DNA from: Diphasiastrum complanatum
Lineage: Eukaryota; Streptophyta; Lycopodiopsida; Lycopodiales; Lycopodiaceae
Length of the DNA stretch: 64,000 nt
Direction of reading: 5' to 3'
NCBI GenBank assembly: GCA_029204225.1
Contig: CM055106.1
Location: 41,928,368-41,992,367 of the forward strand
Part shown: piece by piece, positions 482 to 56,617 of the stretch
Position numbering within the stretch: the stretch's first letter is position 1
Layout: each line of letters starts with the position of its first letter
Position numbers and translations under genes: made by a program
Notes under the pieces: model-generated
What the model saw: the letters and a program-made list of their open reading frames with translations, nothing else
What the model was told of the DNA's origin: nothing
The model's database searches: none

Positions 482-2158
482 ACCAACCATACCCACAGCT
501 AGCAAAGTCTCTTAGGGGGCAGTTAGCACCCCTAAGATGGAGTGCTAACTGCCCACCAAAAGCAATTTAGCATTTTTTGGTAAAGTAAACTTGAGTCCAG
601 GGAACAATTTGTGTAGGAATAGGTTGTTTATAATCTCATATAGCCTTCCTCTCATGAAGCCATTACATTGAAAAGCAAGAACGATGTTTCCGACCTCATC
701 CATAAAAGTATCATGTTCGCTACAACAGTACATGACAGCAATAATTTGAGCAACAATAACTTTATACGAGTTCATAATTGGCCTATTGGTAGTCAAGTAA
801 GTGTATATATTGAAAAAACGAAAACAGAAATCACCTTCGCTTGTCAAATTTTTTCATATGAAACTTACCTGATAAAGAATCAAAGGTAGTGGTAATATTC
901 AAAGAATTGACCATATTATTCGAAGCATCTTCATTTTCTATGGTGAGGTACTCCAAAGGATAGATCCATAAGGCATTATCATCGACACGAGGTTGCTCCT
1001 TGTCCACAAATAAAAGAGTATCCGTGTTGTTTATGAAACAAATATCATCAATATAACGGAAAGTATGCTTGAAGACACGTAGGTATTCCACCTTTCCAAG
1101 TCTGGTGAGTCTTTTCATAAAATCTAATTCAAAGAATGACAGATACCAGTTACACCATGTAGGGGAACACGCAAAACCCATAGGAATACCACAGACCTGT
1201 TTCCAAGTCATGTTTCCTAATCTTACTCTGCAATTGTCAATCGGTATATCATTATATTGGCAAAGAGGTTCCATGTCAATCACAGTCCAATTATCAGTTT
1301 GATTGACAGCCCATTTTCAATCAAATTGCTTAAGGCTCGGTTTCCATTGATAGGCAACTTTTGTTTTTACAAGACTTGAATGCATACCTGATCATTCTCG
1401 GTATTATTATTTTTTGCCCATCAGGACCATTAAGAAGAATATTCTCATAGCATTTTGCGATGTCAGTAGACCACATCCTGGTGATTTTGTTAGGCACATT
1501 AAGTTAAAATTCAGTGGATGAATCACACTGCCAGAATAGGTTGGTATCCACATTTAGGATACTTCGGTATGAAGTTGCCTTAAGGCCTGCCCTCTCCATA
1601 AGGAGAGGAGTCAGTATATCAAGAGCTCCAAAAATAGACGTGGTCAGGCCACCTTAGAAAAACAACAGTCACGTGCATTTGTAATCCATCTGAACGTATT
1701 TTTATGTGCTTTGAAAGTACAGAGTAAGAAAGATAATTCTTCTTTCCCTATAAGAAAATCAAGTATTTTAGTAACAAACGTATCTCGGATCTTAACCATA
1801 GCCATGTCCAATGTATTGTCATTTTCTTTCAGAAATGGGGCAAAATCTAGAGTAGACAGTCTAACCAAAGCCAAATTTCTTAAAAGTAGATGCACATAAA
1901 ACACGGGTTATGTTGAGCCTTATCCACACCATTCACATACAGATTGGTAGTAATCCAATTACGCTCATCAATGGCATATGTAAGTTTGTTATTTATTATA
2001 CTTTTTTCATGTAGCCACTTGGTATTTTTCAAAAAGTTTGTTGCAGCATCTTTGCAAATCAAGGCATGTTCCGTAACAGTCTCATGATCAATATTTTGAT
2101 AAGTAGGTAAAAAACTTGCCAATTCAAACCATCCACAATAAAGTTCTAAAGCTACCTC

Positions 2159-2702: not shown

Positions 2703-3860
2703 TCAATCACGATAAAAGTTTAGCCTTCTGATAGGAAGATCCCCCTTACCACCACTACTTTGCCCATTTTTGCCTTTGTTCGAAAAGTACTTTCTCTTCC
2801 TATTATTGCCACTGCCTGATATGACTAAGCTTGGATTGTTCAGATTGAAGGAACCCATTTTTTTGCTAGTATTTTGGAAGTATTTGTCTTGCAAGGTAGA
2901 GAAGCTGGGTTTTTTCAAAAGGCGTTCAATTTCTCGAACATTTTCAGCATCGTCAAGGTGTGCAAGGAGCTTAGCAGTAGGGTTAATGGAAAGTTCAATG
3001 GCAGCATCAATCATGTATTGTCGGATATACAGAAAAACAAGGTGGGACTTGACAACCTCTCTAGCAGGTTTATGCAACCAAAGGAAGAAGACATTAAGCT
3101 GATTTTGAAAAGACGCACCAGGAAAGAAAATGGAAAGATTATTCATTATGTACCAGATAGAGTGATCAAACCATATGATAGAAGAATTGTTTTTGCATTA
3201 ATCACCACATCTACACTTAACGAAGGGTCTTTTCCAGTTCCAGATTCTAGCCTGATGAAGGTTCATTCTATTAAAGCCAGTGTCAAAATGGCCTCTAGTT
3301 CTAGCCCAGGTCTGCTCAGAAGGACATCTTGAAGGTTCAAATATGCTCGTCTTGATGACAGTATCAAAGGCAATATGAGTATCAAAAGAAGGATTCTTAT
3401 GCAAAGCAGCAAGCTTGCATGCTTGGACTTCTACATCAGTGAGATGAGCAAGAGCAATCCAAAGCTCAATAAAGATAGGTGCTAGGAAGTTGACAGAGGG
3501 AAGGCTCCAAAGTTTATAAGCAGTTTTTGCAGATTTAAACTTAATGATACGGCTAGGTACCAATGGTACTTGGCAACTATTGGCCTGACAAAACTCAAAG
3601 GCAAATTGATTTCCCACATCACATATTTCTTGTGAGAAGGACTCTAACTAAGAAGCACTGTCTTCATCAAGGTCTTCGGTAAAAATCAAAGGTTGAGGTG
3701 AAGTAGGAGCAGTAGTAGGGACATGAGTATCAATAGAGGAGTCACCATTTTCTTTTTCCAAGCAAGCAAATACTTTCCAAATATGCGTATTACAGAAATT
3801 TTTCTCAACAGCAATTCGTTCGGCATAGTTTGAGAGGTCCATATAAATTTTTTCAACCAT
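2703..3860 (-). pseudogene. Upstream coding region of the Penelope-like element, unrecognised
   Basis: Three minus-strand frame fragments (3860-3648, 3617-3198, 3146-2703) lie directly upstream of the reverse transcriptase, in the same orientation. The last contains an acidic, helix-prone stretch with DDAENVREIERLLKK and a basic tail with GNNRKRKYFSNKGKNG, plausible for nucleic-acid binding. No known domain was recognised. Position and shared strand suggest the N-terminal or first ORF of the Penelope-like element, but it could be a separate fragment. Confidence 0.45.
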
Positions 3861-4600
3861 GCTAAGGGTTTTCTTCTTTTTAATAAAATCCGTATAAATT
3901 TTGATTCAATCCATGATGCACATCATATCAACAAGGCAAATAATTTTATCATCTGGGCCAACAACATTAGAAGTAGTCATATCATAAGCTGTAATCAATT
4001 TGTGAACTTCAACAACTTTTTTCATGCAACATATAATAGTCTAAACAAAAGCACTAGGAGGAGGAAGGGGCTCCCCATAGCCATACAATAGATACTGTTA
4101 GCCATAAAATACAAGTAAAGGTAAAGGTTTGGTGCTGCCCCGACCAAAGGGTAGCCGGGGTGGCATCAGAGATGCTAGAGAGAGAGTAACAAGATTTCGC
4201 ATAGTCCCACTTGACAAGTCAAGACCAAACCCTTTGAACCCTTCAATTTATAGCATAACAAGTAAAAATACAATTGTATAAAGTTTAACAGTACAAAATA
4301 CCATAAAGCAAAACAAGTTTGAAGACACCCAGTTGTTACCTACCACATCCCACACAACAAAATCGCACAAGTTAGTCGTGTGAGGAAGACAGGTGTCATG
4401 GCTGAGCATCAGTTGTTATCCATGTCCGAAACAAGATTCACTACTTTATCAGCAAGATTGAATTAACAACAAGTATGTCCAATCTTCCCAATTGTTCATT
4501 TTCTAAATTAGCAACATGTTCCACTCTTTAATGAAGCCGTATCAGGGTAGAAGCCATTATGATTAGTAAAAGAGCAAAAAGGAACATATTAGGTTCACAA
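3861..4600. other. Gene-free stretch between PLE and Copia remnant
   Basis: AT-rich sequence without a convincing coding region. Near 4137-4157 there is a short GC-rich run (gaccaaagggtagccggggt). The part next to 3861 may still belong to the 5' flank of the Penelope-like element. I see no promoter, RNA gene or repeat boundary that I can defend. Confidence 0.5.
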
Positions 4601-5650
4601 GTGTATTCTATACGTAAGTAACTGTTTTTCATTACACAAATGGACAATGACTTGATGTTGGTCACAGTGCTAGGTACTAGAGCACCTCTGTGCTATATAA
4701 AATTTGATACACTTATGTACTCTATTTTTTATTAATCAAAGAGTGCAATTTTTGTCTACACTACTATTTTTACTCATTGTGCATTTTCTTACAGATTTTA
4801 AGTCATCTTAATTCTTGCTACTATGCTGACACACTTCCGATCTACAGCTCATTCGTTATATTCTTCTGCTGCCTTGATCTAGATTTCGATTATGGACATC
4901 TATCCCTGAATCGATTCCGATTCAAATTAAGATACTAATTTCCAATAATGTATCAGAGCACATTTTTTATACACCACCATCTTTTGACATGGTATCAGCA
5001 TTGATGGTTCAGTAGTCTGCATTGTTTTCGTGCAAGTCGTTAGTCTTGTTTCTACCAAGACATTGTTTGAAAGTGTGCAACTAGCAGTATTTTGATATTG
5101 TTGTTTCTACCAATGATCTCATTCTCTTCACTAGAATGGATCCATCTTCTGGTTAATCTGTGATTGACAACCTCGATGGAGAGAAAACTACCATCTCTGA
5201 AAGTTCAAGATGAAAGTTGTATTACTTGCCAAATAATTATGGGACATCGTTGATGGCATAGAGGTCCATCTGAGGTCGATGCAACCAACATCACCAAATG
5301 GAGACAAAGGAATGGCAAGGCATTTTTCTTGATTACTATTCTCAAAGAAAAATCAGAAATTTAGATCCAAAAAATCTACAAAGTCAGACTATCTTGACAA
5401 AAAGAGCAACATGCAGCCTTAATCAAATTAAGGATCAAATTTAGAGACTTCATCATTCCAGCTAGCACAAAAACTATTCTGCAAATATTGTAGGAGGACT
5501 GATCATCAATATTTGACTATGGTTGAGGTGGAAGAGCACTGGAAGCTTGATTTTATTAGAACAGAACTTATGCTATTACAAACCAATCTACCAACATATT
5601 TCAGATTTATCATCAACAGAAGACTCGTAAGTACTTTATGTTTATTGCCA
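4600..5650 (+). mobile_element. Copia-type LTR end, primer-binding site and gag remnant
   Basis: A TATA-like tatataaa lies near 4693. A primer-site-like tgtatcagagcac at about 4950 resembles the plant initiator-tRNA-Met primer site (tggtatcagagc). From 5137 a broken frame opens with MDPSSG and continues with VIDNLDGE, an LWDIVDG-like segment and KWRQRNGKAFFLI. This is the usual layout of Copia gag. Several stops and shifts destroy the frame and no protease, integrase or reverse transcriptase follows. The LTR's 5' edge was not found. Confidence 0.6.
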
Positions 5651-5995
5651 TTTCAAAATAGAACAAAATAATAGAAAATGTCATCATTTACAATTGCACA
5701 TTCACTAATATTTGTCGTGTCACAGATGTGAAAAAGACAGGAGCTGATAACGTGCTGCAAAGATCTACCTACAACAATCACCATTGTGGGAGAACAATAG
5801 TTTCAAATAAACTTTAGTAAAAATCTGTGTATACACCCTTTCATTCAATAAATGAAAGCCCAAGTTGGGCATCTGTACATGTATTTTGTGCTCCCAAATT
5901 CATAAACTGGAGCGGCATTTGATATATCAATGTATATTTTTCTATGAAGTCTATACATGTATTTTTGTTCTATTCTATCTATATTTTTTCTGATC
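5651..5995. other. Gene-free stretch 3' of the histone-protease gene
   Basis: AT-rich sequence with no coding signal, between the Copia gag remnant and the stop codon of the minus-strand gene. It would include that gene's 3' UTR. A polyadenylation signal could not be fixed by eye. Confidence 0.5.
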
Positions 5996-7750
5996 TTAAT
6001 TTAGTACAACTACATCATCCTTTGCACCATCATCAATAACGGGAGGCTGAAGCCTTGCCCTAACCAGTATACTCAGGATAATTTCTTGTCTAAATCTGTA
6101 CACCTGGCTTGATGTGTACTCAGGAAGTGTAAACTGCAAAATAGAACATTCATGTATTAGTAATGGCCAATAACATCACCAGAATAGAAAACTAATCATG
6201 ATTTCAAAATAAGAATAAACAGAATTTATTACCTTAGAAATATCAACATCTTCCTGAAGGTTGAACCACTCAAAAAATAGTTTGTCATTGTACAATGTGT
6301 ACCACCCACAGCTGAATGAATCATTTTGCTGGGGTGACTGCAAAATAATTCAGAGCACAAGAAATCAATTATGAAACAGAATGAATCAGATTGAAAATAT
6401 TTCATTAGAATATTGATTTCAAAATGCTATTAAGAAAGATAGAGTTTACCTCCAAGCTGACGATCTGCCAATCCACGGAATGGGGAATGTCTGTAAGAAT
6501 ATATTTACTTAGATATGGAATGAATATATCTACATCCTTATGCATATTTCTCGTCGAATTCATCTTGACACAGGAACATTTAATAATATTATTTACAGAT
6601 CTCTTAATAGAGATCAGGTTTAAACTCCAGTGGTCACTGCAAAATAAGATTGAAAGTACTTTAGCGGCAATTCTAAGAACTATTTAAATTGAAAATGTCA
6701 ATGTTAATGCATAAAACAGGAAGAAGCACTTAATATATCTTACTTGGTATGATAAGGAATGACCAGATACTTTGTTGTTGGTGTGAATCCACTTGTCAGA
6801 CACTGTGACAATGTGTCACTATTATCCTCGAAGGCCTGGAGCAGAAAGTTACTCAGCACCAACAACTCGTTTGATGAATTTCTTGCAATGTCAAATTGCA
6901 AGAATGTCAGCCCGGACTCTATCACATGATCACTGATAGGAGCCCGTCTGTCTTTGAAATCCAGGCAATCTAGAACTCTAAAATTAATACTAAAATCAAG
7001 TTCTTCTAGTCTAAAACAAAAAGGAGTACCGATTGTATCTATAGCATCCGATATGGCTTTCTCAAATTTAAGATAATCATCTGAATCTATATATGTATAG
7101 AAATTGAGAGGAGGTGGAGGAGGTGGATGTCTAGTATCTACAACAACTATAGGAGTATCCAAAACAGAGGTAGCTATATTTACAGCATTATCAACAGTAG
7201 CATTATCCACAATGGATTCTGGGATAGGCTTCACTTTCTTAGGAGCACGCTTGGGGGCTGTCTGCTTCCTAGGACACTTCGTAGGAAGATGAGTCCTATC
7301 TACAGGAGTTGGTCTAGGAGCAGCAGGCTGAGATACATGTAACCTACAGTACCTATCCCTCATTCTCATCAGAAGCTAAAAATCCTTGGGCATTATGGTA
7401 ACCCTCTTGGTATGGATGGCAAGCAAAAAAGAATCCTGAAAAAAAAGGCTAATATAATCTTCAGCAGCCTCCTAAAGGCACTGAAGAGCACTCGGTGTGA
7501 ATCTAACGTGCTGTCTGAGATCATTTCTTGTTATGTTCCGAATAATACGGTAGAATGGAGCTCTTGGGATCAACAGAGCTGTTGACCTCTGATACTTGCG
7601 TATCTCAGAGAGCCACCTATTGCGGTTGCACGTTCTAGGTCTAGCAGGTGGTGTGATGGCAACCGCAGGAGATGAGGATGAGCCAGGAGAGAAGAAATCT
7701 CTCCTTGTCTGCTTTCTCCTATCCGTGGACGTGAACTATGTGATAGTGGA
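5996..7750 (-). pseudogene. CenH3/H3-like histone fold fused to a Ulp1-type (C48) protease
   Basis: Four minus-strand exons, about 7750-6744, 6636-6450, 6337-6233 and 6133-5996, are joined by GT-AG introns of 107, 112 and 99 bp; every join keeps the frame. The first part reads as histone H3: EIRKYQRSTALLIPRAPF, an RFTPSALQCL / EAAEDY helix, then IHTKRVTIMPKDF and LLMRMRDR. LIPRAPF resembles plant CenH3 more than canonical H3 (LIRKLPF). After a basic, proline-rich linker comes a Ulp1-like domain: DHVIESGL, NDHWSL (histidine), PQQNDSFSCGW (glutamine and catalytic cysteine) and a C-terminal YRFRQEIILSIL. The usual aspartate (YDS) appears as MNS. About 475 residues. In-frame TAGs replace the conserved glutamines of LQEA and KDxQL, and another lies in the N-tail; no start ATG was found. 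Ulp1 enzymes cut SUMO-like proteins; a fusion to a centromeric-type histone is not a family I know. Decayed copy, or less likely read-through. Confidence 0.7.
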
Positions 7751-8558
7751 CTTGTGCGTGAAGGTTAGGATGAGAAGGAAGGGATGATAAAGAACTTGCA
7801 GAGGACCGCTATGTACGGACAAAATGTTCGGTATATCAGACCTATGCGAGCCGAATATAAGAGAACGATTAGATTTGAGGAAAGACGCACAAGTGCAATA
7901 TGGGGTGACACGTAGGCAGACATATCGGACCTGTGCGCATGGAAGGTAGTAGGAGGAATTTTCATTGTGAAGGACGCGCACAAATACGATATGCGGAGCG
8001 AAAAAAAAAAAGTGAAAAAAATTCATCGAAATTTGTGATTTTAAATCGGGGTTCGCACGTGCGAAAGAACGTCCTGTCACACGTGTGGAAGTTGTACGGA
8101 CAAATACGAGAGCGACACATGTCACCCTGTCACACTACACGTGTGAGATTTGTACGATCAAATGCGAGAGCGACACGTGTTTGTGAGCAATCAAATGAAC
8201 ATGCGACATGTGTCTAGGTGTCATTTCACACGTGTGCAGGTGTCATCTCACACGTGCCTGCGCCTATTGTCGAATTGAAAGTAGACACATGTCATAAGTC
8301 CGTTGACCACACGTGTAAAAATATAGTATAAATGGCACGGAAACTGAATAATCTTTTACCTTTTGCGTTCTCGAAATTCACAACATATCGCTTTTGTGCA
8401 CGCTCATTGCTGTCCGTTTGCTTGCAAGTATACCTACTCGCGCACAGGTGCGATATTCTGTATCTGTTTGCCATACATATCCATCTTCAGTGCCATTTTG
8501 ATAGTTAGTTTTGGTTCAGTTCTCCCGCGTGGACAAGTGCGATATTCACGCTACTGTC
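7750..8558. promoter_or_regulatory. Divergent intergenic region with clustered CACGTG palindromes
   Basis: This stretch separates two genes transcribed away from each other. Between about 8050 and 8320 it holds a cluster of cacgtg or acatgt palindromes: gcacgtgc near 8055, cacacgtgtg near 8077, acacatgt near 8114, acacgtgt near 8137 and 8173, gacatgtgtc near 8205, cacacgtgtg near 8227, cacacgtg near 8248, acacatgt near 8285 and acacgtgt near 8309. Some sit in degenerate repeats sharing gtacg-caaat-cgagagcgaca. CACGTG is the G-box bound by bZIP and bHLH factors. A shared, strongly regulated bidirectional promoter or enhancer is the natural reading; a replication or protein-binding array is an alternative. 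A TATA-like tatagtataaat lies near 8322-8333. Confidence 0.55.
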
Positions 8559-10074
8559 ATGGCCTCTTCCTCATCATCCTCATGAGAATCAGGCTTGAGT
8601 TCATTTTTGAGTGAATTTGGGATTATTGAAAGTCTGGACTACTTCCATAGCCTATTCAGGCCATATCTACATGTTTTCAGAACTGCACAACCAAATTCTG
8701 ACGTATTTTATGAACATTATGTCAAATTCAGAGATATACTTAGCAAGCCTGTTTTCTCCATAGGTCAACTCCAGTACATGCATTATACTGATCTTGTTCA
8801 TTTCTTCCCAGCTTTTAGACATAGACTGGATAGAATGTTCACCAAATTGTTTGATCTTTTCAAAAGTAGTTCTATGTGTTTGTATTGCAACAAGAAATGT
8901 CGATTGGTTGAATATCAGAGTGGTTTCGTACTTTTTTTTTTAGTTCAGATCCCAAATAATGATGAAGGTCCTGTTGTTGACCCTCTTTTTGCACCCTCCT
9001 CTGTTTAGTCAGCCATTAAGGAGATCAGTCACTTTCTTATCGACACTCCTGATAAAGAAAGTGACTTCATTGATTTAAATACTGATGTTCTCCGGGATTC
9101 TTTCATTGGCCAAAATACATCTGATGAGGAATCCAAATCTATGGAGGATTCGAAATGTCTTTTCAATTTGTCTGTATATTATATTAATGACGATGTATAT
9201 TTTGCTACTGCTGATTTATGTAAATTTTTTGACTATCGTGAGGACGAGGTTCTATGTTTATTATCCGGCACAATTTCCAAATTCTCCGACTTTGTAGATT
9301 TTGAGACAGATGACCTTGTTGCTGGTATTGATTTTGATGATGAGGGGGGTCTTATGACCGGTGAAAAATGTCTGAATAAGACTTTATCAAATATAGCTGA
9401 GGATGGGCAAGGCAGACCATTCGATGAAGAATTCACGGCATTTCAATCCTAGATGGGCTTTCCTCGTCCATCATTAATGCATTTCACTGATGATTCCACT
9501 TCAATACGTGGTCATTATATTGATCATCCTGATCTGGTTGCTGCTATGATGAAGAATGTGTAAGTGTTTAATTTTCCTTGCATTTAAATGTTTTCAATCA
9601 TTGAATGTGTGTTTGCTAGCATATTTCCTATTGCAGGATGCTCTCATAATAGATGATTTTGCTACGAGACAAGGTGGTTTCAGACAACACGCATCCTCGT
9701 TCCAAAGGGACAGTGGATTGGGCCACTATCTTCGGCATTTCTTGAAGAGTGAGATCTGTATTGCTCATTCCAAGCTGAGCCCAGTCGGGGAGAGTCTTAT
9801 AATGGCAGTTAAAGCTTTATCATTTTATCTAGGAGGACATAAATTTGTTAAGACAAATAAGATTATTTTTGTCAAAAGATCTTATGTTTTGAACATTTTA
9901 GGCTTTACTGATGGGAATGTTCCTTTAAGGAACTCCCATTATTCATTGTATTCCACTTATATTGAGCTTAGTGGAAATAAGGATAATGCACATCTATTAG
10001 ATGCATACGCTAGCAGAGAATTTCTTCATGACAATACTCCCATAGAATCTGATACAAGATCTGATGATGAATAG
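8559..10074 (+). pseudogene. Unrecognised two-exon gene paired with the histone-protease gene
   Basis: Exon 1 runs from ATG at 8559 to 9557 and exon 2 from 9637 to 10074. The intron has GT at 9558 and ttgcag at the acceptor, and the join stays in frame, giving about 478 residues. Exon 1 begins MASSSSSS and contains a C-x2-C-x3-C knot (CLYCNKKC). It then has an acidic middle with DDVYFATADLCKFFDYREDE, loosely like the fold of viral Bro-N/KilA-N DNA-binding domains, too weak to assign. Exon 2 includes DDFATRQGGFRQHASSF and a basic KTNKIIFVKRSYVLNILGF stretch. Exon 1 carries three in-frame stops: TGA at 8583 and TAG at 9006 and 9450. The rest of the frame is open and amino-acid use looks protein-like on both sides of each stop. 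Function unknown; the head-to-head layout suggests co-expression with the minus-strand gene. Confidence 0.5.
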
Positions 10075-10560
10075 TTGACACTTTGTATAATACAGTCAAT
10101 ACATTTACATTGGGTATTGCTCCTCTCTTGTTCAATGAATTTGCAAGACAATTTTGAACATGTCATGATAATCTTCTACTCAGCAATGATGATCTTCTAT
10201 ACAACAATCATCTAATTTTCTCTTCCTGTATGAACTTGCATGCTTTTCTAAACTTGTTGTATTGTGTGGACTTTGTCATATGTCGAATCTGAACTCTGCG
10301 GTAGAACCACTGAAACAATTGACAAATGTAGTTTCGTTTTTCATTGGTTCCTCCATGTTGTGTATTTCGATGAAATGTTGTTCGTGCTTGCCAGTGTGAC
10401 TTCTCCATCCCTTGTGATGACCATACACTCAAGCTTCCATATGTATTTGCAAAAAATGTTGTATGATCTCTTAGTATGTGCTGCATATGTCAAAATCATA
10501 ATGTTTGTCTTATGTTTAGATCTAAATATATATGAAAATTTGAAAGCATTTGAAAATTTT
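10075..10560. other. Gene-free spacer, 3' end of the divergent partner
   Basis: AT-rich, no recognisable coding region on either strand. It carries the 3' flank of the plus-strand gene and runs into the C-terminal end of the minus-strand CACTA-type transposase. Confidence 0.4.
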
Positions 10561-12637
10561 ATACTAATAATGTAATGAGTGATGTGATCTTCTCCCCATG
10601 CTTTTGATATTGCATTAACAAACTTGACACAAGTCCTTTGGACAGCTTTCTTATCAATATCAGAGTATTTTTCTTTTCTTAAAATAACAATCATACTATC
10701 AAGCTTTTTCCATATATCAACTTTTAGTACTTTGGTTTTGTCGTCTTTCTCGAAGTCCTGAGTGGCAGCAATAATATCTGTCCAAACTGAGTGTTGAATA
10801 TTAGAAGCCTTACCAGTATTATTTGATAGAAAACGACGTGATTTTCTCCTCCTATGCTTGGCTTAGTTGGCATGTTCCCATTCTTTCCTGAAAGCTTTTC
10901 ATCTTTTTGAATTTTGACATGTCCTTTATGGAGTCCTGCTTTTGATCAAACATCTTGTAATCGAGAGATAGCTTCCTTTGCTAATGATGCTGGCTTAGTA
11001 TTCCAAGCAAAAACTATATGAAGATAAATGATCTTTTCTATTAATCTAACTTCTGCATGAAGAGTGCAAACATGCACATTTTTTAAGGGGATAGGCAGCA
11101 CAGGCTTCCAGTTTGGATCTGCATATTCTCTAGTAATTCATGTACTCCTAGTTACATCTTTTGCCATTTTCATGCAGTACAAACAAGGGTGTTTTGATGT
11201 AGCACCATGAGAGACATTATACATACATTTCAATGTTTTCAAATCACCTGCTAAGTGCCATTCAACATTGAAGTCTCCAACTCCTAGAACATTGAGAAAT
11301 TCTCCATCCATATGGTCCTTGATGATCCTAGGATAAGATGTCCTTGAGAATATCCATGATAATATATCATGATCCTCTTTCAGCACCTGTCCAAAGAATT
11401 AATCATACTTAGTTTACAATGTATTAATACTATTCAATGAATGTAATGTAATAATGAGGCTAGTTACCTGAAACGCTGCCAACCACCATATATCATTTTC
11501 TGATTGGACACTGAATTTGAAATCTTCTTGGTTCTCTGTTTGGGATAGAGCACCATTCATGAGAGTTATACTAACCCTTTCCATCTTCTGCCCTTTCACA
11601 ATTTCTGACTCGTCTAACTTAAGTACTATGATTATTTTGCCATTCACCTTTTCATAGGTTATATCATAGAATGTGACGATGTATCTCAGCAAGTAATTTA
11701 GATCAACAAATAAATTGTTTGATGAATAATAGAATATCGATCTTCCATCAGTTTCATACACCTCCTCAATATGAAATGGAGTTCCAGTGATCTTATGCAT
11801 ACCTATGTTTAATGTATCCCTCTCTTTCTTCAAGTGATATGTCCTAGGAATTGGGACTTTTCTAATTTGAACTTGCTTAAAAGCTTCTCTAATTAGTTTA
11901 AATATTGTTGCATATGCTTCCCTACTAATACCTGCAAAATCACAAGCACCCTGAACTATAGTCTTATCTAAAATATTTTGAATGTCCACCATCAAAGACT
12001 CTGCTATTTTACACTTTACATTTGAAATCCTATTGTTCATCATGGGACATTTCTTAAGTGATCCATACCTTCCTTGATATAAAATACAATCTTTTGGACA
12101 TGCATGATATTGCTTGTAGTCCATCCCGATGTTAGACAACATCTTTCGTGCCTCATGTCTTGTCTCAGGCATGACATTCCCTTCTGGGAGAATTTTGTTT
12201 TTCAATAAAAAAATTATCACTAGATGTTCAAATTGTAAATTTTGTTTCAAAGCAAAAATGACAAGTAGATGAAAAAAAATTTACTCAAATAATGATGTGA
12301 GGCTTTGGTCACTCCATCTATATTTGGTTTGAAGATTTAATAGAAGTAGAGAAGTCGCCAAACGAGATGTCTTTGCTCCAGGATACAATGCAGTTTTTGA
12401 TTCTTTTCGCAATTTCTTTTTTTCTTTAGACAAAAGTGCCTCCTCATCTTGTTCATTGTGTCTAGCTGCACTATTGTTCTTGTACATATCATCCAACATG
12501 TCTCCCATGACTTCAAATTCATCATTCATTGGAAGCTCATTTTCATAGTTAGAACTTGTTTGCGAAGAAGTAGATCTAGATGAGCTAGATTCAGATGCAT
12601 TACTCTCTTGATTAATGTGCTCATCAATTTCCATCAT
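10560..12637 (-). mobile_element. CACTA (En/Spm)-type transposase gene, decayed
   Basis: Minus-strand fragments lie in order from 12637 to about 10560. The N-terminal piece (12637-12281) has a serine-rich acidic start, then KTALYPGAKTS and LLNLQTKYRWSDQSLTSLFE. The next (12250-11414) gives ILPEGNVMPETRHEARKML and the strongly conserved YHACPKDCILYQGRY, hallmarks of Tnp2-like CACTA transposases. Downstream (11386-11138) are GDFNVEWHLAGDLKTLKCMY and HPCLYCMK, matching the later zinc-binding part of that family. The C-terminal piece (about 10694-10560) includes DKKAVQRTCVKFVNAISKAW. Stops and shifts between the pieces are partly introns, partly decay. The enzyme would cut and paste an element ending in CACTA repeats; I could not identify those ends. 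Confidence 0.75.
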
Positions 12638-30380: not shown

Positions 30381-30406
30381 TTAGAATCTCATAATTTGTT
30401 GTATCT

Positions 30407-30705
30407 TTTAGTTTTATATCCATCAAATATAAATGAATGGGAGCCCACAAAATCACTTGTCGGTATATTGAATGTCATACATTTAGACATAAGAAAATTG
30501 TACTACCAAAGAAGATCTCCAAAATAACTTGCTGATAGCGGTGTCTACATTTATGAATCGCTTTACATTCCAAATATGCATGAAAACTGTGGAAATCTTT
30601 AGGTCATTGCACTTCTGAAATTGGGCAGTGATGAATATATTATTCCTGACAACACTATGTCAGAATCATTTTGATGCAAGCTCTTTACTGATGTTAAGAA
30701 TTCTA
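30407..30705 (+). pseudogene. Unknown family 'SVCNEKD': second-domain fragment
   Basis: The plus-strand frame from 30407 reads YPSNINEWEPTKSLVGILN, then VIHLDIRKLYYQ, a stop, and VYIYESLYIPNMHENCGNL, ending TMSESF and LFTDVKNSMN. It parallels, word by word, the segment at 59380-59680 (YPSSIIEWQPIQSLVGIMD, FFYDSFYTP, STIVESF, FFMDIQNHM). An acceptor-like tatcttttag just precedes it, as at 59377. In-frame stops mark it as dead. Function unknown. Confidence 0.5.
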
Positions 30706-30899
30706 TGAACGAAGTACTAGTATCAAATGGATAGACATTGGCAAAACAATCAAAATAGTGGAAGAACAATAGAATCAATCATTTAATTATTACAAGTCTA
30801 TGATCAATATTGAAACAACCATAAAAGCAAAAGACAAGTTTCAATGTCACAATCCATATTTCTAGAATGAAAATCCTATGAATGGATTGTGTACATGTC

Positions 30900-33270: not shown

Positions 33271-33992
33271 CATGACTAGAACACAGAATTTCCCGTATCG
33301 ATGCACCAAAGTACGATGGAGAATCTGACCAAGCTCTACATTGGTGAGATTGGTAGTGTATTTCTCTTTGTAACTCAAGATCTTTCAAGTGGATTGGATC
33401 ATAATGATTCAGGTTATGAAGGAGGAAATCAGATCTATCAATGATTTGGTGAAGATATCAAGGCTAGAGCATGCAGAGGGGATTCTACACCAAAATCGAG
33501 TTCTTTGCTTTTGTAGATTTGGATCTTTTGTAGATCAAAACTCTAAATAGGTTCATAAACTTGATCAATTTCTATTTTTGAATTCACATACTGAATTTGG
33601 CCGATTTTTGGATCATTGGATCAACCTAAGTGGTGGTTAATAGATTGCATATCGAATTTTCAGCATTTGCATATAGATTTGGAATATTCAGTTTTTTGTG
33701 ATTTTGTCAAAACCCTAATCTTGATTGGATCTCTAGATTGTGAGGTTGCTGGACTTCATTTGAGTGTGTTTCAATCTTAGGAAGTGGCAAAAGTCATTAG
33801 ATTGAGGATAGATCATAGATTGATCAAGATTCCATGATTCTATGTGTTGATTTGCTTGGTATAAGTGCTAGAAGAGAATTTGTGAGATAGTTTCAAATCT
33901 TGGTGATTTCTTTTGAAAGCATTTGTTGTTGTTCAAAGGAGTGCTTTGTGCATTAAAATAGGTTGAAATAGAAGATTAGGTCAATTGGAGTC

Positions 33993-34391
33993 ATGTTGGA
34001 AGCCAATGATAGGCTTACCTTAAGTAACTATTCATTGGGGAAAGTGAGGATGGAATCACTTCTTGAGATGAATGATGTTTTGGATATTGTTGTAGGTTTG
34101 GAGGAGAGACCAGCAACACAACATGATCAAGTGAGGTATGACAAGAGGGCCAAGAAGGCTCTACACATTATCAAGATGAATGTTACCAATGAGCTTCTCA
34201 AAGAAGTTGGTAAGTGCACTTCATCTATGGATGCTTGGGATTCATTGAAGAAGCTTTATGAATCCAAGTCTAATTCTAGAGTGTTGACTCTAAGAAGGCA
34301 AATCTTTTCTTGTTTGCAAAAGAATTTCATCAAGTCAAAAGCCAAGGAGAACATCAAGGGAAAGACAAGTACCTTCAAGGCTCACATATGA
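33993..34391 (+). pseudogene. Copia gag (UBN2-like) fragment
   Basis: A 132-residue frame with MLEANDRLTLSNYSLGKVRM, DEVVGLEERP-like and KKALHIIKMNVTNELLKEV, then STSMDAWDSLKKLYESKSNS-like words and RRQIFSCLQ. This is the helical capsid region of plant Copia gag. It joins directly, in the plus orientation, to a reverse-transcriptase piece at 34444, so zinc knuckle, protease and integrase are absent. Confidence 0.75.
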
Positions 34392-39712: not shown

Positions 39713-42700
39713 ATGTCAATGATACGCAATTATGCAGACATGGCTATATTGCCATCCAATATAGACGAATTATACGCCGGCTTCACTACTTCTCCATTGA
39801 GCTTCATCACATTCTTGCTGATTGTGGGTTGGTGGATTTTCAGACATCGATTCAATCAAAGGCACAACAAAGGACCAAAGACATGGCCAGTTATCGGTTG
39901 CATTATTGAGCAAGCGAAAAATTTCAATTTTCTCCATGATTGGCTGCTTAATTACTTCAAAGAGACACCCACATTTTCGGTGCCGATGATGACGGTTAAC
40001 AACACATTCACTTCTACTCCTGCTAATGTGGAGTACATTCTCAAGACCAATTTCGCCAACTATCCAAAGGTCAACTTCTCTCTGTGTTGCTCCGTTTTAC
40101 GTTCAAAAAATATGAGTGATCAGTACTGTGATACTTATAATCTATCAATCTCGTCCCAGTTAGACACTGAAGCTTGATAAAATGGTCATTGATGCATCGA
40201 AAATGTTGAGAATTTAGAAGTCCCTTATGTATCTGTATATCCCGTCGATTTGACGAAACCTTTGCACATTATTTATTACTTAGAATATTTGTTGAACTCT
40301 ATGGACAGGACCTTTCTGATCACTTAAATTTTTTACACAAGGTAAAAAATCGACTTGTAGTTCTCGTCATCATTGAGAGAGGATGTTTACCTTGCAATGA
40401 TAGTAGTCTGTTTGTTTGTCTTTCGAAGATATCAACGAGTAAACTATGGGGAGCTGGGACGGACGACGCACGTACGATTTAATGGCTAAATCAGCAAATC
40501 TGACAGTAGACTGTGTGAACCTTCAAAACTAGGGATCTCACTTGCTGTTCCGTGTTTTGCTTCGTATTCTAAGCTGATTAATGTGCCTTGAAATGAATTG
40601 GGAATTGGATGGGCGCCCTCTAAGCTGCCATTCTTCGTGTACAATCATTCCATGAAAATGGAACATCTAAACATCTCCACTCTAAGGTTCTCACAAAAGC
40701 AATGCGATTACTATAATGTCCTTAAGCTTTGACCTGATTAAGAAAATATATCTCAAGCATCTCTCGTGTTATGACATTTCTAAGAGGTCTCTTCATCCAG
40801 CAAATTATGATGAGCGTGGTTTTCTACGTCTAATTTAGAAGTCCCGTCTTGTAACTTTTTGTCTCTTGTTTCCTGTCTTCTATCTAGTAATGTGTAGAGG
40901 ATATCATGTTTACGATCCCTCTGGATGATAGCAAGATCCTGAAACAGAGAACTAGAATCCAGGATTTTTTCTGACTGCAGAAAAGTATACAGACCCGCGA
41001 CCTACACGTGATACTAATTACCACCTGATAGTTTTGTCTGTTCGCTTTTGGCGTGCCTTCTAGAAAGCTTGAAGCATCTATTAGTCAAAAACTCAATCTA
41101 GTCTCGGGTTACTATGAGCTGGCAAATGATGGCGAGTGGTGTTGTGAAAGCCTTTTCAGTAACTGATCTCTAGCTGAACATGCATTACGAGTTTTACGAT
41201 TTGCTGTCAACCCTGGCTTCTGGCAACTGATCTATCCTCGTTTCCATATCTATGTTATGTGTGGTTAACTTCCATCCAGTATGGGGAATTTGCACCGTAT
41301 AATTAGCTCAAAAGTTTCCTGCACTAATCAATCCTCCTGTGAATTGGTGTAATCTTTGGCACTGGAGATTGGCAACACCGACTGAACAAAAAAACTACTA
41401 AGTAATACTTAAAACAGTGATAATGTGGTTCTAAGGTAGTGAAGATGGTGTTGTGTGAGATTGGAAAACTTCAATCTAAGGTTTGGTCTACAATTTTAGT
41501 TATCATGTTGGTTTCACAGCAAGCACTCTAGACTCTTTCTAAATTTGGCTAAGTACTTTACTGAATACATGATGAATACACCGTCGTGGCTGATGTAACG
41601 TTTTACAAGGAGGAAGATAATGCAATGAAATGCTCCTCTGATGTGCTTTTGGGAACTACTGTAGGGTGAAAGAATACAAGAGCGATTTATCGATATGATG
41701 GGGCTGGGGATTTTCAATGTTGACGGGGATTTATGGCACCAACAACGAAAAGTGTCGACCGTGGAGTTTGCATCATCGAAGCTTCGGGATTTAAGCACGC
41801 AAGCTTTCCGGGAGCAAGCACTGAAGCTGGGAAAAGTTCTGTTATTGGCTACTCAAACCTCGCAAGTGGTGGACCTCCAGGTATGACTGACAATCAATGT
41901 AAAATTCTATGAGATAGCTTCCTTTCATGCGTGTTGAAATCACGCGGAAAAATAGATTGCAATTGCATCACTCCATGGGGAGGTTGCTGATCTTCCTAGT
42001 GATCTAGCTGCTCTCACATTTGCATCTCAGTTGATCGGCAAAATATCTCATATGTGCAGGATCTTTTCATGAGATTGACACTGGACTCCATCTGCAAAAT
42101 TGGATTTGGAGTCGACGTTGGGTGTCTGACACCATCACTACCTATAATACCCTTTGCAGCAGCCTTTGATGAAGCCAATGAGCTACTTATCCGGAGATAT
42201 GTGGATTTCACTTGGAAAATAAAGCGAGCTTTGAATATTGGCTCAGAAGCAAGGCTTCGCAAATGCATTGAGGTGGTGAACTCTTTCCTGTATGAGGTGA
42301 TTGAAGCAAGGAGAGCAGAAATGCAGCTCAACTCTTTTGAACAGAATGAGGTAAGAACTGCCCACATCATGCATAACTCACGCGCATTGAAGATCACATG
42401 TGAAATTTCTGCAACTCTGAACGAGAGAGAAGTAAAACAGTCGTCTCTGTAGTGATACTCTTTATGAGCAAAAAGGTAGCCCCCACATCTTCAATGCCAA
42501 GCGCTTTTGTTTTTTTTTTTCTTTTGGCGGCCTACTTTCTTAAGGCATAGAGGGTCCAGGTCCAAGGACTTCCCTTAGAGGAAGGGTCCTTCCTCCACAT
42601 AAAATCAAGTGTTTTATTTATTTATGATTTTCGTTTTTGGTTGTATTATTTTCCAACGCCGACGGAAAGTGTGGAAAAGTAGTGATTCTTTTACGTGCAC

Positions 42701-45700
42701 CTTTTGATTGATGGAGGTTCACTTTTGGCCGTAAAAGAATTTGCTCCACCGATTCCGTTTTGTGAGGTGCCTCCAGTTCCTTCCTCAAAAATTAAATATA
42801 AAATCTACGTTATTAGAACAATAGATCTTTTTGTTTTTAGCCTCCAAACTCTTACAAAGTTCATTTGGTTATTTTCTTTTTCACAAAATTTTCAATGGGT
42901 TAACTTTCAATGATTCCAAACTCTTACAAAGTTCATTCGGTTATTTTATTTTTCACAAAATTTTCAGTGGGTTAACTTTCAATGATTTCAATGATAAAAC
43001 ACATTGAAACCAGTAATGGATACCTTTTGAATATTATGCCCATTTTAAGACAAATTAAAAAGCAGAAAATATGTGTTTTCTTAAAAAGCAGATTTTGCAC
43101 ATTTTTTTGCTGCCTGTTCGTGCCCGTCCGTATGGTGTCCGTACGACTGCCATGTCGCGCATTTGTAGTGGTCAGTCAAAGTCAAACTGCCTATTATGCT
43201 TCATAATGTACATGTGAAAAAATTTAAGGTACCTATTATGCAATGGAAGGGGCTGGGCATAGGCCATCCTGCCCGGTCTAAATTTTTTTGGAAAGCCAAA
43301 CCGGGTTAGAATGGCATGTGCCCGACCCCTTCCATAAAACATAAAAGTTTGATTCTTTGACCTAGGTTGTTCTCTAGGTTATAGCATATCCTAAAGTATT
43401 ACAACTTAGTATTGATTACTAGATAGAAGCCATAATGAGTTTGGAAGTTTGGAAGTTGGGACCAACTTTTTACCTATGAACATGTTCAAAAAGTCAAAAT
43501 CCACCAAGCTTTATGACAATATGGGAATATGGACCCTATATTTACCACTTAAATTTTGTTATATAAAAAGAATAAATCTTTAGTCCTTGATATTCCTCAT
43601 TTACTCTAATTATTTTCCTTACATTTTTCTATGAAACCAATTAAAATTATTCATTTAAGAAAGACAAATGGTCAATTTACTCCTATCAAAGTTTATTATT
43701 GTTATTAAGATTTTTGTGCAAATTTAGAAATTACTTGGATAGATTTCAAAATCCGCAGATTGTTTGTAAGACTTTGTTGATTCTTTGTGAGTATCTAATT
43801 ATATTTAGATCAATGTAAGTATTTTGTGTACCAATATCCTCAAATTATATTGAGTGATTTATTTCATTGTGAATTACATTTGTTCGCCATTGCAAGTATT
43901 ACAAATTTTTTGAGTTTAAGTTCAAGGCATCCTCAGGAAATTATGTGGTGTGCTGCGTTTGATGGACTCAGTGAACGCATAAACATGAAACCTCGCATTA
44001 TTAACTTTGAAATTGAACTCACCTTGATTTCCTTGGATATTATGAAAGTTGATAATGAATTGACTATTTTTTGTGGCAATTTATGAAATCTAAAATCCAC
44101 CATAAAAAATTTCAAGAATATTTAGCTTATAAAAAGGTCGTAAACGGACTTGAAAGACATACTATGACTCATAAAAATTCATAAGTGAGATTGGTAAACA
44201 ATTCTGGCCATAAAACTAGGTGTTCTTCACCATCTTTCATGCTAACCTATGCTAACCTTTACACTCGATAAACGGCCGTAGACTCATGGCAAGGCTTAAT
44301 AACCTTGCCATAATTATACTAGGTGCAAAGGTCACTTCATTTTACAATTTGAGTACGATAAATGCAAATGTATGCCACTTTTCATAATCGCATGTTACAG
44401 TAATCCATATGTACGTAGCTCAATACTTAGGCGTCGAGTCCATCATAGTGGGGTGTATAAGTAGAGTTGTTGACTGCCACCAGGAAGGTGGAGGCTCGAA
44501 TCCCGACCATTGTGTAGTGACATCTAAGGAGCTTAGCACCATAAATGGCTTCACCAAGTTGTATATATGTTCTATAGAACCATTGAGTTCCTTAATAATC
44601 TATGCTTAGGCACACTACATTTTCAACTCCCAAAAATATGGTACAGGGGGCATGATTTACTCTGCCTGGGGGCTTTCATAATACAATAACTTCTCGCTCC
44701 AAAGTTAAAAACCTTCAAAGACTTTAACGGTTTTTATTAATGGTTTTTGGTCAAAAGTTGTATGTTTCAGTTGTTTTTTTGAATTTTGAATAGAAGAGCA
44801 CACCTCTTGGGTTTTTGAATTTTGAATTATTTGGTTTCAGAAAAGAGCAGACATACTTTCCCGGTTCATGAGCCTCACTGGCCCTGACGCCTACGACGAC
44901 AAAATGCTGCGAGATGTGGTTGTGAACTTCATCATTGCTGGACGAGACACCACCGCGCTCACTCTCTCCTGGTTGTTCTCTCAGCTTTGTAAGCATCCCG
45001 ATGTGATTCACAAAATCCTCTTCGAGGTTTCTGCAGTCCTAAATGAGGAAGACACAAGCTGTATTGCCACTGAGCAGCTTGGGTTGTGGGATAAGATGGT
45101 TAATTTTGCACAGCGCTTGAATTATCAGAACCTGAATAAGATGCAGTATCTGCATGCTACCATCACTGAGACTCTCCGCCTCTATCCTGCTGTGCCGCTA
45201 GTATGGCCTCTTGCTATAGTTTTCTTCTTTAATCCTCATTCATTTCTAGTCAGGAATAATGAATCATGTGTGGATGGTTTTAGTTGTACTTATTACAGAA
45301 AAGGCTTCAAGTATGTACTATATACAGAGTCGAAAGCTTCATCATCAAAGGCTAAAGCTGTAGGTTGCCTCTGGCCTGAATTAATCACGTGTTCTGTTGC
45401 AGGAAACTAAGAAGGTTAAATCTGACGACACTTTGCCTGATGGAACACCTGTAAAACAAGGCAACTTTGTTAGCTTTGCTCCGTACTCTATGGGACGGTT
45501 GGAGCGAATATGGGGACCTGATGCGGACGAGTTCAAGCCAGAAAGGTGGCTTGTTGATGGAGTCTTCCAGCCACAGTCGCCTTTCAAACTTACAGCATTT
45601 CAGGTGAGGTGCATTCTAAACATCTATTCGCTTCATTAGAAATTGGCCGACGACAGCCCCTAGCTCTCTTGAATCAAGTTCTTCACAAAAGTAGTTACAA

Positions 45701-51705: not shown

Positions 51706-52385
51706 CTAGTACTTCATTGATCGTGGGTCATAAAGATGCACCAATTTCAGGGCCGCCTTTGTAACTATAGTTGAGCCATTGCGGTTGGGCTTCAGTCGTT
51801 GCTTGGTTGTGGAGCAGTATTGAAGGATCACTTGGCTTGAGAAAACTTTCTCCTGAATGAAATGATACTGGATTTCTGTGTGCTTAGATTTGCCATGAAA
51901 TCTGGGATTCAGCGATAGTGAAATATAGCTCAAGTTGTCACACAAAATGGTGATAGCATTAAACTGAGTGTGATGTAAGTCGTGAAGTAATAACCTAATC
52001 CATACAATTTCTTTTGAAGCTTGACATGCTGTGATGTACTCTGCCTCGGTTGAAAAAAGCGAAACTCATTTCTGCTTTCTTGAGTTCCACAAAATCGGTC
52101 CCCCTACCAAATAGAAACAGAACCCGAAGGTAGATTTTCTAGTAGAGACTGTTTCTCCCCAATGCATCATCTACGTAAAGAGCTATGTGAACTAAATGGG
52201 TACCTATATGCTTGGAATAAATGTTATAGTCAGCTGAATTGTTTGCAAAATTCAATGAGATAAAGTAAGAGTTGATTCTATTGAACCATGCTCTTGCAGC
52301 CTGTTTCAAACCATAGATTGCTTTGTGCAGCTTGCACACTATGTGCTCTTGGCCTTTGACTTCAAATCCTTCCGGTTGGAGTCTC
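51706..52385 (-). pseudogene. Copia reverse transcriptase / RNase H remnant
   Basis: On the minus strand: QPEGFEVKGQEHIVCKLHKA and IYGLKQAARAWFNRINSYF, then HIALYVDDALG with the catalytic YVDD box (52373-52140). After a deletion of the connection region comes TEAEYITACQASKEIVWIRL, then LCDNLSYISLSLNPRFHGKS and KHTEIQYHF of RNase H (about 52050-51780). Order and wording are typical of plant Ty1/Copia. The upstream part of the enzyme is replaced by the palindrome array. Confidence 0.85.
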
Positions 52386-52640
52386 GACCTATGCTTAGCA
52401 TAGGTCGAGACAAGACTTATGCTCAACATAAGTTCGAGCTCGCTCAGCATAGGTACGAGCTCCAAGCTCGACCTATGCTCACCATAGGTCGAGCGATAAC
52501 TTATGCTGAGCATAATTCTTGTTGCGACATAGGTCGAGACAAAATCTTTTTTAAGCATGGGTTGAGGCAGGTTTTATGCTTAGCATGGGCTTGTGCTTGC
52601 AAAACCCCTCGCTACACCTATGCTCAACATAGGTTTGTCA
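52383..52640. repeat. Cluster of small palindromes built on CCTATGCTnAnCATAGG
   Basis: About six hairpin-forming units in 260 bp. Clear ones are cctatgcttagcatagg inside a 27-nt perfect palindrome (52383-52409), acttatgctcaacataagt (52415-52433), cctatgctcaccatagg inside a 29-nt palindrome (52466-52494), ttatgctgagcataa (about 52501), gcttagcatgggc (about 52580) and cctatgctcaacatagg (about 52617). Further loose copies occur near 53180-53210. They form a block that interrupts the Copia reverse transcriptase. Confidence 0.8.
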
Positions 52641-54571: not shown

Positions 54572-56617
54572 TTACAATTTAAATTCCAAGGAATTCCCAC
54601 TAACTCCTCTTAAGTCACTGCTTGAAATATTATCAAGGCTCTTCTTTTCAGCTGAAGAAATTGATGACCCATCTTCTTCATTAGAGTCTATCGACAAATT
54701 CTCATCCGAATCAGCATCCAATGTCGAGAGAAAATTGTTTATTGTGGCTTTGCTACGTTGAAACCGAGTCAAAGATGGTTGTGCACTTAGCCCAAGTCGT
54801 TCTTGTAAAATAGATATTGTGGACTTTCATAAATGGTTCGTCATTGTTAACTCCAAATTAAATGCAAGCACATCCACATCTTCAAGATGTATGTCATCGA
54901 CTCTAGGTTGGTTCTTTGTTGCACATTTTCGCTTGTCTCTTGGATCTAATTGCAACAATTTTAGCTCGTACCTTTCCAAGAAAGCATTTGTTGAAATGGT
55001 ACGCATCCAATGCACATACAATCTTGGTGTCGTTGCTCTGAATGAAGGCAATCACTTTAGCAATCCCAAATGGATGACTTTCACTATTAAGTGCAATGAG
55101 ATTCCCGACCTTTAATTCATTGAAGTTACCAGACCATTTAGCCTTGGCAACATTTATAATTCATTGACTTTTTCTTGAACCCAAATAAATTTCAAAAGAA
55201 AGTTTAAAGACTCAGTCTGTTCTGGAACAACAGAGGAATCAACGGTCGTCGTTGGAATTGAAGATTTGGTTGGCCACTGAAATTCTTCAGACAAGTTTGA
55301 GTCTCCCAAATCAAGCAAACGTATTTTTGCTTCTCAAAAAAGTTCGTCCACCAATGTCGATCAAACTCGTCAAAACATTGGTATGTTGTCTGAATGGTTG
55401 TTTCCAAAAAGTTTAACGCCGCAAATGGATCGACTGGCCTCCAAGACAGAAAGGTGCAGACTTAACTTGAGAAGAAGACACAAATTGTAAAAAATTGACT
55501 CCTTCAAAAGGTAGCCATGCCACTGAGTTAGAGAATTGCTTTCCCCACAATAATGTGATGCCAACAACATTATTGGCAATTTTGAACTGATGTTGAAAAG
55601 TCATTTATTGGTGCAATGCAATGTCCTTCCGACGTTTTGATGTAATCTCTAAAATCATATGTGAAACGCAATAAACCCACATTTGGTGTAGGGGTGTACA
55701 AGTCCTCGATAATACTCTATAAGACTGGTAAAGAAAAGGCTTTTTTTGCGTCTTAGCTTTTTCAAGAAACAACTGAACATTTGGTCAATTTGATCTTGAG
55801 TGTGACCCACCAGTAAAAATCCTATTTTGATTTTTTCAAAAATTTTCAGAGGGACTAACATTGATAAATATGCCAGCACTATTTGATTTTTATTTTCTCT
55901 GGCAGTATTATCAAGTTGCAAGTAGAGAATCTCAGGAAGACTATTACCAGATTCAAGTATTATTTTGTGAATTATGGTAATGGTCAAGTTTGGATCATTT
56001 CAAACATTTGGATAGTTGAAATACACTTTAGACTGCAAAGTGTTGTTGAATATAAGAGCACCAATCAAATGAACTTGAATAAAATCAGCTTCGTTTAAAT
56101 CTTACAAAATGTGACATTAGTGTTTTCTTTTGATCCATCCCATCAATTACGAGTACCCAAATACTTTTGAGAAAACTCCAAACACTTTTTTCGGTGTTTT
56201 GCAAGCTTTTGTCTTTCTATTGTATGTTGCTCTTTGTGGATTTGAAGTGACTTGGTAATGTCTGCTAAAAAAATCACAAAAAAAAGTAATTGGAAGCGCA
56301 AAAGAAAGTTAATTTAATGAGTGAAACAAATTTAAATAGCAAATACATTTTTCTTGGGACGTTTTTGCTTGTTTTCTAAGTGTTTTTAATTGCTCACAAA
56401 TAGTACAAACAGACATTCGAGATTTTTTTGGAATTTTTACTAGACCAAAATCTCTTTTCCACAGCTTCACGAAATAAAATAACTTAGATGTGTTGGTGGC
56501 CAACGATTCATAAGGATACGGAGGAATACTTGAAAAAGTGCGATGTGTGCCAAAGGGCGAGGAGACCAACGAGATTGAATTATGACCTACTGCACCCAGT
56601 CTTAGCCCAAGCACCAT
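54572..56617 (-). pseudogene. DUF7869-like transposon protein, decayed
   Basis: Minus-strand fragments in order: FYFVKLWKRDFGLVKIPKKS and RMSVCTICEQLK (56520-56380), then QVHLIGALIFNNTLQSKVYF (about 56075), LPEILYLQLDNTARENKNQI and LVGHTQDQIDQMF (55900-55760). Next come SVAWLPFEGVNF (55600-55410) and an acidic tail with SIDSNEEDGSS (54772-54572). The LQLDN-ENKN-VGHT-DIDQ series recurs in uncharacterised mobile-element proteins of plants and other eukaryotes (DUF7869-like) and may be an RNase H-type transposase core. Stops break the frame. It overlaps the start of the Gypsy integrase at about 56480. Confidence 0.65.

Follow-up and report, generated by a model that had tools for sequence, protein, structure and literature searches.

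This locus of Diphasiastrum complanatum raises the question of whether a single gene can encode both a histone of the H3 type and a protease of the Ulp1 type, and what kind of gene this would be. The window, i.e., the whole stretch of 64,000 nucleotides that was analysed, had received an initial annotation in which a minus-strand frame with the peptides of an H3 fold is joined by three GT-AG introns to the boxes NDHWSL and SPQQNDSFSCGW of Ulp1 proteases. Every quoted peptide is present on the minus strand, and the four exons of the gene (window 7735-5996, minus strand) do join in frame via three GT..AG introns:

6744..7735, minus strand: H3-Ulp1 exon 1, with the N-tail, the H3 fold, the linker and the N-terminal part of the C48 domain
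6450..6636, minus strand: H3-Ulp1 exon 2, with the His box NDHWSL; splice sites compared over 32 aligned rows
6233..6337, minus strand: H3-Ulp1 exon 3, with the Gln/Cys box SPQQNDSFSCGW
5996..6133, minus strand: H3-Ulp1 exon 4, terminating at TAA, codon 474

Domains of the H3-Ulp1 gene

The H3 fold occupies codons about 41-128 of exon 1 and is followed by a basic and proline-rich linker. With stops read as X, the product of the window gene matched the Pfam family Histone (PF00125) over residues 28-126 at 4.8e-26, above the curated cut-off, and Peptidase_C48 (PF02902) over residues 320-431 at 6.1e-9 (36.5 bits against a cut-off of 20.7). Both matches are far beyond chance. They bear out the proposal of one gene with an H3-type fold, alpha-N included, and an Ulp1-type protease, a reading that was to be given up if an HMM search found no histone fold. 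When the product was compared with PDB using phmmer, the best matches were H3 chains (1.4e-22), and Ulp1 (1EUV) was matched at 8.9e-4 with the His, Gln and Cys aligned. The parts of the C48 domain that correspond to 1EUV are HWS, a Gln six residues before the Cys, and SCGW. These His, Gln and Cys residues, which we take to be the catalytic ones, are kept in the family of the window copy (family A), in copy L072 of the related group A' and in one copy of a more distant family, D. The canonical catalytic Asp, placed by eye, is Cys in family A and Asp in L072, with none evident in D. The conserved H3 N-tail ARTKQTARKS is absent from family A, which reads MDRRKQTRRDFF.

A structure prediction had also been suggested; an AlphaFold prediction from the sequence of exon 1 by itself, in which Gln was put for TAG, returned a pLDDT of 34 and no usable fold. 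A genome search with the C48 HMM, in which 150 of 520 candidates were scored, gave three matches, none of them at the window, where C48 is distributed among four exons; these three loci (L001-L003) gave no match as BLAST targets. A search of IMG/VR with exon 1 of copy L010 returned eight pattern stretches with no relative among them, and Rfam and tRNA searches gave no match.

Decay of the copy in the window

The histone frame had been described as continuing without a break, which is not the case. The window copy has an in-frame TAG at codons 88 and 120, both within the histone fold and each directly 3' of a fragment quoted in the initial annotation, and its start is lost, with ACG at codon 4 where most aligned relatives have ATG. 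Since both stops fall where H3 has Gln, an altered genetic code with TAG as Gln would render the window copy intact. Among the 32 aligned rows, however, stops at codons 88 and 120 occur only in the window and in its near-identical duplicate L005, and the family majority has an ordinary Gln codon at both places, so that the TAGs are mutations. The lost ATG speaks against an altered code as well, as do C>T plus G>A changes, which account for 666 of the 1082 differences from the majority and follow the pattern seen when methylated DNA decays. The altered code is refuted by these observations and has next to no probability. The same excess of C>T plus G>A is as expected of methylated, silenced copies. 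The window gene belongs to a transposon and has decayed; it lies in a dead, internal fragment of the element.

The duplicate L005 (C15:46772558-46776550) lies on the same contig as the window, 4.8 Mb away, and shares with the window copy the break at 5508. It is 99.975% identical to window 5243-9235 over 3993 bases, which may reflect a segmental duplication or an assembly duplicate.

The carrier transposon

The genome searched comprises 1,744,706,496 bases in 5176 contigs (1.74 Gb). The parent of the window copy is a DNA transposon of ~9.4 kb. It is bounded by 35-bp terminal inverted repeats (TIRs) and carries at least the following four genes: a putative transposase, ORF2, H3-Ulp1 and ORF4. 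The following parts of it lie in the window in addition to the four exons:

5508..12044, no strand assigned: transposon part in the window, 94.1-94.7% identity to three other copies
8559..10071, plus strand: element ORF2 (MASSSSSS...), interrupted; by tblastn 90% (8559-9077) and 92% (9637-10071) to the ORF2 of other copies
10341..12044, minus strand: putative transposase gene, in pieces; by tblastn 98% (11896-11471) and 95% (11398-11045) to other copies
5508..5650, plus strand: ORF4 remnant, C-terminal end; by tblastn 48% to the family D ORF4 (1.2e-10, match 5495-5650)

The span of 5996..7750 in the initial annotation thus matches the gene but not the repeated unit, which is larger, as 5508-12044 is common to other copies; this stretch also aligns in large part with 30 shorter loci. 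Positions 5508 and 12044 were rejected as element ends, since other copies run on past both borders, and are breaks of the window copy. The TIR core was not found in the window, and both element ends, with their TIRs, are missing from this copy.

Full copies end in inverted repeats of 35 bp, CATTAGAGGAGTTCTCAATATCAAAAAGACCCTTT, which are perfect at both ends in two of the three, c18 (9386 bp) and c10 (8681 bp, with an internal deletion), while the third, c12, is truncated at one end. The flanks differ between copies bounded by these same repeats, and all 40 scored genome candidates match the 5' end of the element. Three copies were read at both ends, and none has the matching flanks, of at least 2 bp, that a target-site duplication would leave; for three further copies, no 3' end was detected within the sequence stretches read. 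The gene order in c18 is ORF1/putative transposase (plus strand, pieces between 491 and 2830), ORF2 (minus strand, 3283-4846), H3-Ulp1 (plus strand) and ORF4 (minus strand, 7681-8532), with ORF2 transcribed away from the H3-Ulp1 gene; exon 1 of the latter corresponds to 5592-6584 in c12.

The role of the putative transposase is suggested by its position and its D- and C-containing motifs (LKLDES and GDLK...HPCLYC). Apart from the histone and C48 domains, nine ORF pieces of family A matched no Pfam family convincingly (best E 0.13) and no transposase family at E<=1, and among the window ORFs no hAT, MULE or CACTA transposase domain was detected at E<=0.1, a result compatible with remote homology. 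No Pfam family was found for ORF2, and a fragment of the putative transposase gave two chance-level matches in PDB (0.59). The window ORF 12280-11417 was rejected as a single transposase because it extends across 12044, the border beyond which the window has no homology to other copies. Its part beyond the border (12045-12280, minus strand, MLSNIGMDYKQYHACPKDCILYQ...) runs in frame into the transposase part of the element; it was not flagged by Pfam, and we presume a resemblance to the CACTA Tnp2 protein.

Other features of the window

Two ORF4 relatives lie elsewhere in the window on the plus strand, one at 59357-59787 (82% to the family D ORF4 in its main stretch) and one at 30402-30707 (57% to the family A ORF4). 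No histone was found near either by tblastn, and by their resemblance both read as further pieces of related elements. A reverse transcriptase fragment at 834-1316 (minus strand; RVT_1, 1.9e-4, below the curated cut-off) is presumably Penelope-like, judging by its motifs. Pieces of a cytochrome P450 gene lie at 42003-45407 (plus strand; PF00067 at 2.6e-20 for 44826-45407 and at 2.8e-4, below the cut-off, for 42003-42449). Pieces of LTR retrotransposons were detected at 33972-34388 (plus strand, copia-type gag, 2.1e-15), 52142-52573 (minus strand, RVT_2, 9e-18) and 56488-56895 (plus strand, integrase zinc-binding domain, 9.8e-7).

Copy number and intact copies

A 32-base tag from the family A histone, searched with up to three mismatches, occurs at 437+432 = 869 places genome-wide, compared to none for the reversed control. 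When the whole protein was used as the query, exon 1 was matched in all 90 scored candidates (E below 4e-146), 20 of them without an in-frame stop and 70 with stops. We aligned 32 rows, consisting of the window, 29 other A copies and two A' copies; L004 was dropped as the window's own place. Eight rows (L006, L007, L010, L012, L023, L024, L025 and L030) are intact, with ATG, a frame that stays open up to codon 474 and three GT..AG introns, and correspond to about six independent copies, as L006/L007 and L023/L024 look like duplicates. Intact copies hold both domains in a single gene. The possibility that intact relatives would have the histone and the protease as separate genes, raised in the initial annotation, is therefore not what we observed, and its suggestion of a selfish cargo or a captured histone fits best with a gene of a TIR transposon present in hundreds of copies. 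A TAG at codon 100, within the histone fold, is common to 15 of the 32 rows (L009, L013, L015-L022, L026-L029 and L031). A lineage whose histone is interrupted has thus multiplied, so either the protein would be dispensable in cis or the lineage would be moved in trans.

That some copies are intact and bear marks of past purifying selection might also be expected of a domesticated family of host genes whose copy number had simply grown. The gene, however, lies inside units bounded by the 35-bp TIRs, within flanks that are unlike one another, and it is present in hundreds of copies, most of the scored exon-1 matches having stops; we regard domestication as very improbable. That the gene is an H3-Ulp1 fusion belonging to a transposon is, in our judgement, close to certain.

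Selection on the two halves

For family A, a majority sequence was built with the near-duplicates L005, L006, L024 and L027 left out. Compared with the two A' copies, its dN/dS values were 0.11 and 0.08 for the histone fold, 0.22 and 0.24 for C48, and 0.38 and 0.50 for the linker. Silent changes, judged against the mutation spectrum of 26 family-A rows, were in excess in the histone (p = 8.7e-5 and 3.5e-6), in C48 (p = 0.0022 and 0.005) and in the linker (p = 0.0028 and 0.016). These ratios indicate purifying selection in the past on both halves of the protein. Among seven near-intact A copies (L007, L008, L010, L012, L023, L025 and L030), dN/dS was 0.91 for the histone, 1.18 for the linker and 0.38 for C48; between the majority and the window it was 1.13, 0.85 and 0.57, respectively, and between the majority and the remaining decayed copies 0.48, 1.17 and 0.36. 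The values of 0.91 and 1.13 point to little constraint on the histone in recent copies. In family D, the one pair compared had uncorrected ratios of 0.40-0.79.

The relaxed histone in near-intact copies and the amplified codon-100 stop are what one would expect if the histone were a passenger, i.e., a transduplicated host exon placed before the Ulp1 gene of a transposon and having no histone function. Captured H3 genes are indeed carried by fungal hAT elements, and in Pseudocercospora fijiensis all captured copies are described as inactivated (PMC6710886). The low histone dN/dS between A and A', with its excess of silent changes, speaks against a passenger, as does the persistence of the fusion at the same gene position in family D, where the histone has diverged to about 38% identity. 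We consider the passenger explanation unlikely.

The same fusion in a distant element family

Family D was first met adjoining copy L007. Its identity to family A is 57% and 68% in parts of the putative transposase, 38% in ORF1, and 28% and 41% in ORF2. Copy L086 has an H3-Ulp1 gene at the position and in the orientation of that of family A, followed by ORF4 at 50% identity; its histone frame is shifted and a canonical intron-1 acceptor was not seen, while by eye the intron-1 donor and the exon-3 acceptor are at positions matching those of A. In two more D copies, exon 1 is open over 379 and 373 residues. Copy L087 begins with MARTKQTAR, as H3 does, although its N-tail is H3-like only in these first nine residues and some fold residues are missing; L088 begins with MARAKQTAK. 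Pfam Histone was matched in L087 and L088 at 2.4e-16 and 4.6e-23, respectively, and C48 was not reported for the exon-1 piece of L088, which is without the His and Cys boxes. A tag for family D occurs at 193+206 = 399 places genome-wide (control, 0), and the N-terminal 98 residues were matched in all 150 scored candidates. By sequence comparison, the fusion appears to be old, being conserved in this distant family, which suggests that the elements manipulate host chromatin with it.

Thirty-two of the 150 listed D histone matches lie within 2.9 Mb of one contig (C3:18.5-21.5 Mb), and six further listed matches lie at C3:29.98-30.15 Mb. This cluster may be the result of local duplication or may mark chromatin of a special kind, for instance a centromere.

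Related elements, host H3 and the descent of the transposon histones

The genome gave 13 full-length, single-exon host H3 matches (95-96%) to a canonical H3 query; in addition, there were some split H3 genes and over 100 single-exon matches of divergent sequence. Two host H3 genes (L061 and L066) have Tyr at position 41 (HRYRPG). Plant H3.1 is described as having gained Phe at this position from ferns onwards (PMC5809374), and Tyr thus fits an early-diverging land plant.

Fifteen divergent H3 loci were read, of which 12 belong to a family B, one to a family C and two to A'. The histones of B and C lie in proline-rich or basic ORFs, PF00125 was matched in B, C and D, and tblastn with the C48 pieces of A and D found no Ulp1 in the B and C loci (about 2.9 kb each). 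A family B tag occurs at 93+104 = 197 places genome-wide (control, 0). An ORF2 relative is present in 6 of the 12 B loci (31-33%, 2e-8 to 1e-6), and in L081 the H3 is joined to an ORF1-like part (37%, 5e-8). Based on these two observations, family B, and possibly C, seems related to the A/D elements, with the H3 placed elsewhere.

A tree was built from 17 rows and 96 columns. In it, the ten transposon histones all fell into one group (92/88), within which A grouped with D (95/88, starred) and B with C (100/99, starred). The transposon histones were placed with CenH3 and away from H3 at moderate support (85/91, not starred), the CenH3 rows being two plant sequences and an H3/CENP-A chimera from PDB. 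In loop 1, which in CenH3 is longer and has Trp in place of Phe, family A has one extra residue and keeps Phe, D has four extra residues and Trp, and B has neither an extra residue nor Trp. The label CenH3-like, used in the initial annotation, is thus moderately supported: the tree and the longer loop 1 of D with its Trp favour it. As for a host CenH3, a first degenerate pattern gave no match in the genome, and a second occurred at 23 places, 20 of them within H3-type matches, with no clear CenH3 among them. A single capture from a CenH3-like gene, with the fusion made later, would fit the tree at its moderate support.

The CenH3-like features of D, the grouping with CenH3 and the D cluster on contig C3 could also mean that the histone half targets integration by guiding the transposase complex to particular chromatin, e.g., of the CenH3 type, where the protease would trim SUMO off chromatin proteins. 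Such targeting seems improbable, since 100 listed places of the 869 for family A are distributed across contigs C1 to C12 and none of these falls within C3:18.5-21.5 Mb, and since the D cluster may be a local duplication.

Proposed role of the H3-Ulp1 protein

The explanation that we prefer is that of a decayed transposon gene whose H3-Ulp1 product would act against silencing; taken as a whole, we hold this to be reasonably probable. The ancestor of the H3-Ulp1 lineages would have taken up an H3-type histone, for which a CenH3-like gene is the most likely source, and fused it to an Ulp1-type cysteine protease, the fusion presumably being kept since. The histone half is predicted to pair with H4 and enter nucleosomes, and would stand in for a DNA-binding domain by fixing the protease to chromatin. 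The protease, if SUMO is its substrate, could then strip SUMO from silencing or assembly factors, and the element might in this way escape silencing. This anti-silencing step, taken alone, is tentative, with the balance somewhat against it. With its catalytic Asp substituted in A and none evident in D, the enzyme may be weak or only SUMO-binding.

In the contest between transposons and silencing, chromatin assembly is a main target; if the explanation is true, a gene combining a histone and a SUMO protease would attack it with a part of the nucleosome itself. H3-Ulp1 is a compact protein kept across two distant element families, and transposon H3 folds, as counted by the tag places of A, D and B, far outnumber the full-length host H3 matches, with a direct bearing on the evolution of H3 variants and CenH3. 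A bolder reading, which is conceivable but rather doubtful, is that these elements form an undescribed transposon superfamily that made one capture of a centromeric-type histone and uses a nucleosome-borne deSUMOylating chimera by which chromatin on the element's own copies, perhaps at centromeres, is opened or re-specified. In that case, transposon copies bearing an H3 fold, many in a decayed state, would number well over a thousand in a genome that has a few tens of H3 genes of its own.

Comparison with known systems

Like two plant CENH3 sequences, the transposon histones have LLIP, EAAEDY-like motifs and KDF/KDM; D has a longer loop 1 with Trp and, in L087, the start MARTKQTAR. In contrast to plant CENH3, they are fused to a protease, are multi-copy in transposons and have a histone fold encoded by a single exon.

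Each half has been described in transposons by itself, H3 in fungal hAT elements and Ulp1 in plant MULEs and Ginger1. Among the matches listed for open PMC papers, there was no H3-Ulp1 fusion and no H3 in plant transposons. A plant DNA transposon gene with an Ulp1 domain is known from the Kaonashi/KIU and VANC genes of Vandal elements (non-TIR MULEs), where some KIU/VANC proteins have this domain (PMC13317346), and VANC-type proteins counter silencing and cause hypomethylation of their own elements (PMC13317346, PMC5735166, PMC10398659). These are MULE elements, and the review PMC13317346 mentions no histone. Ginger1 transposon proteins likewise contain a protease domain, Ulp1 or OTU (PMC2836005), which is fused to an integrase-like transposase, with no histone mentioned in the main text of that paper.

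Viral H3 genes have been described (PMC9145170). On the histone side, the likeness is to TIR DNA transposons that carry and multiply an H3-like gene beside the transposase: a hAT element of Pyrenophora tritici-repentis has the H3-like gene H3L beside its transposase and an extra ORF (PMC3538342), and H3-like genes occur in hAT elements of Pseudocercospora fijiensis and its relatives (PMC6710886). In the fungal elements, as described there, the H3 is a separate gene and its copies are young or inactivated, whereas in the Diphasiastrum element the H3 is fused to Ulp1, no hAT domain is detected by Pfam, and the fusion is found in two deeply diverged families.
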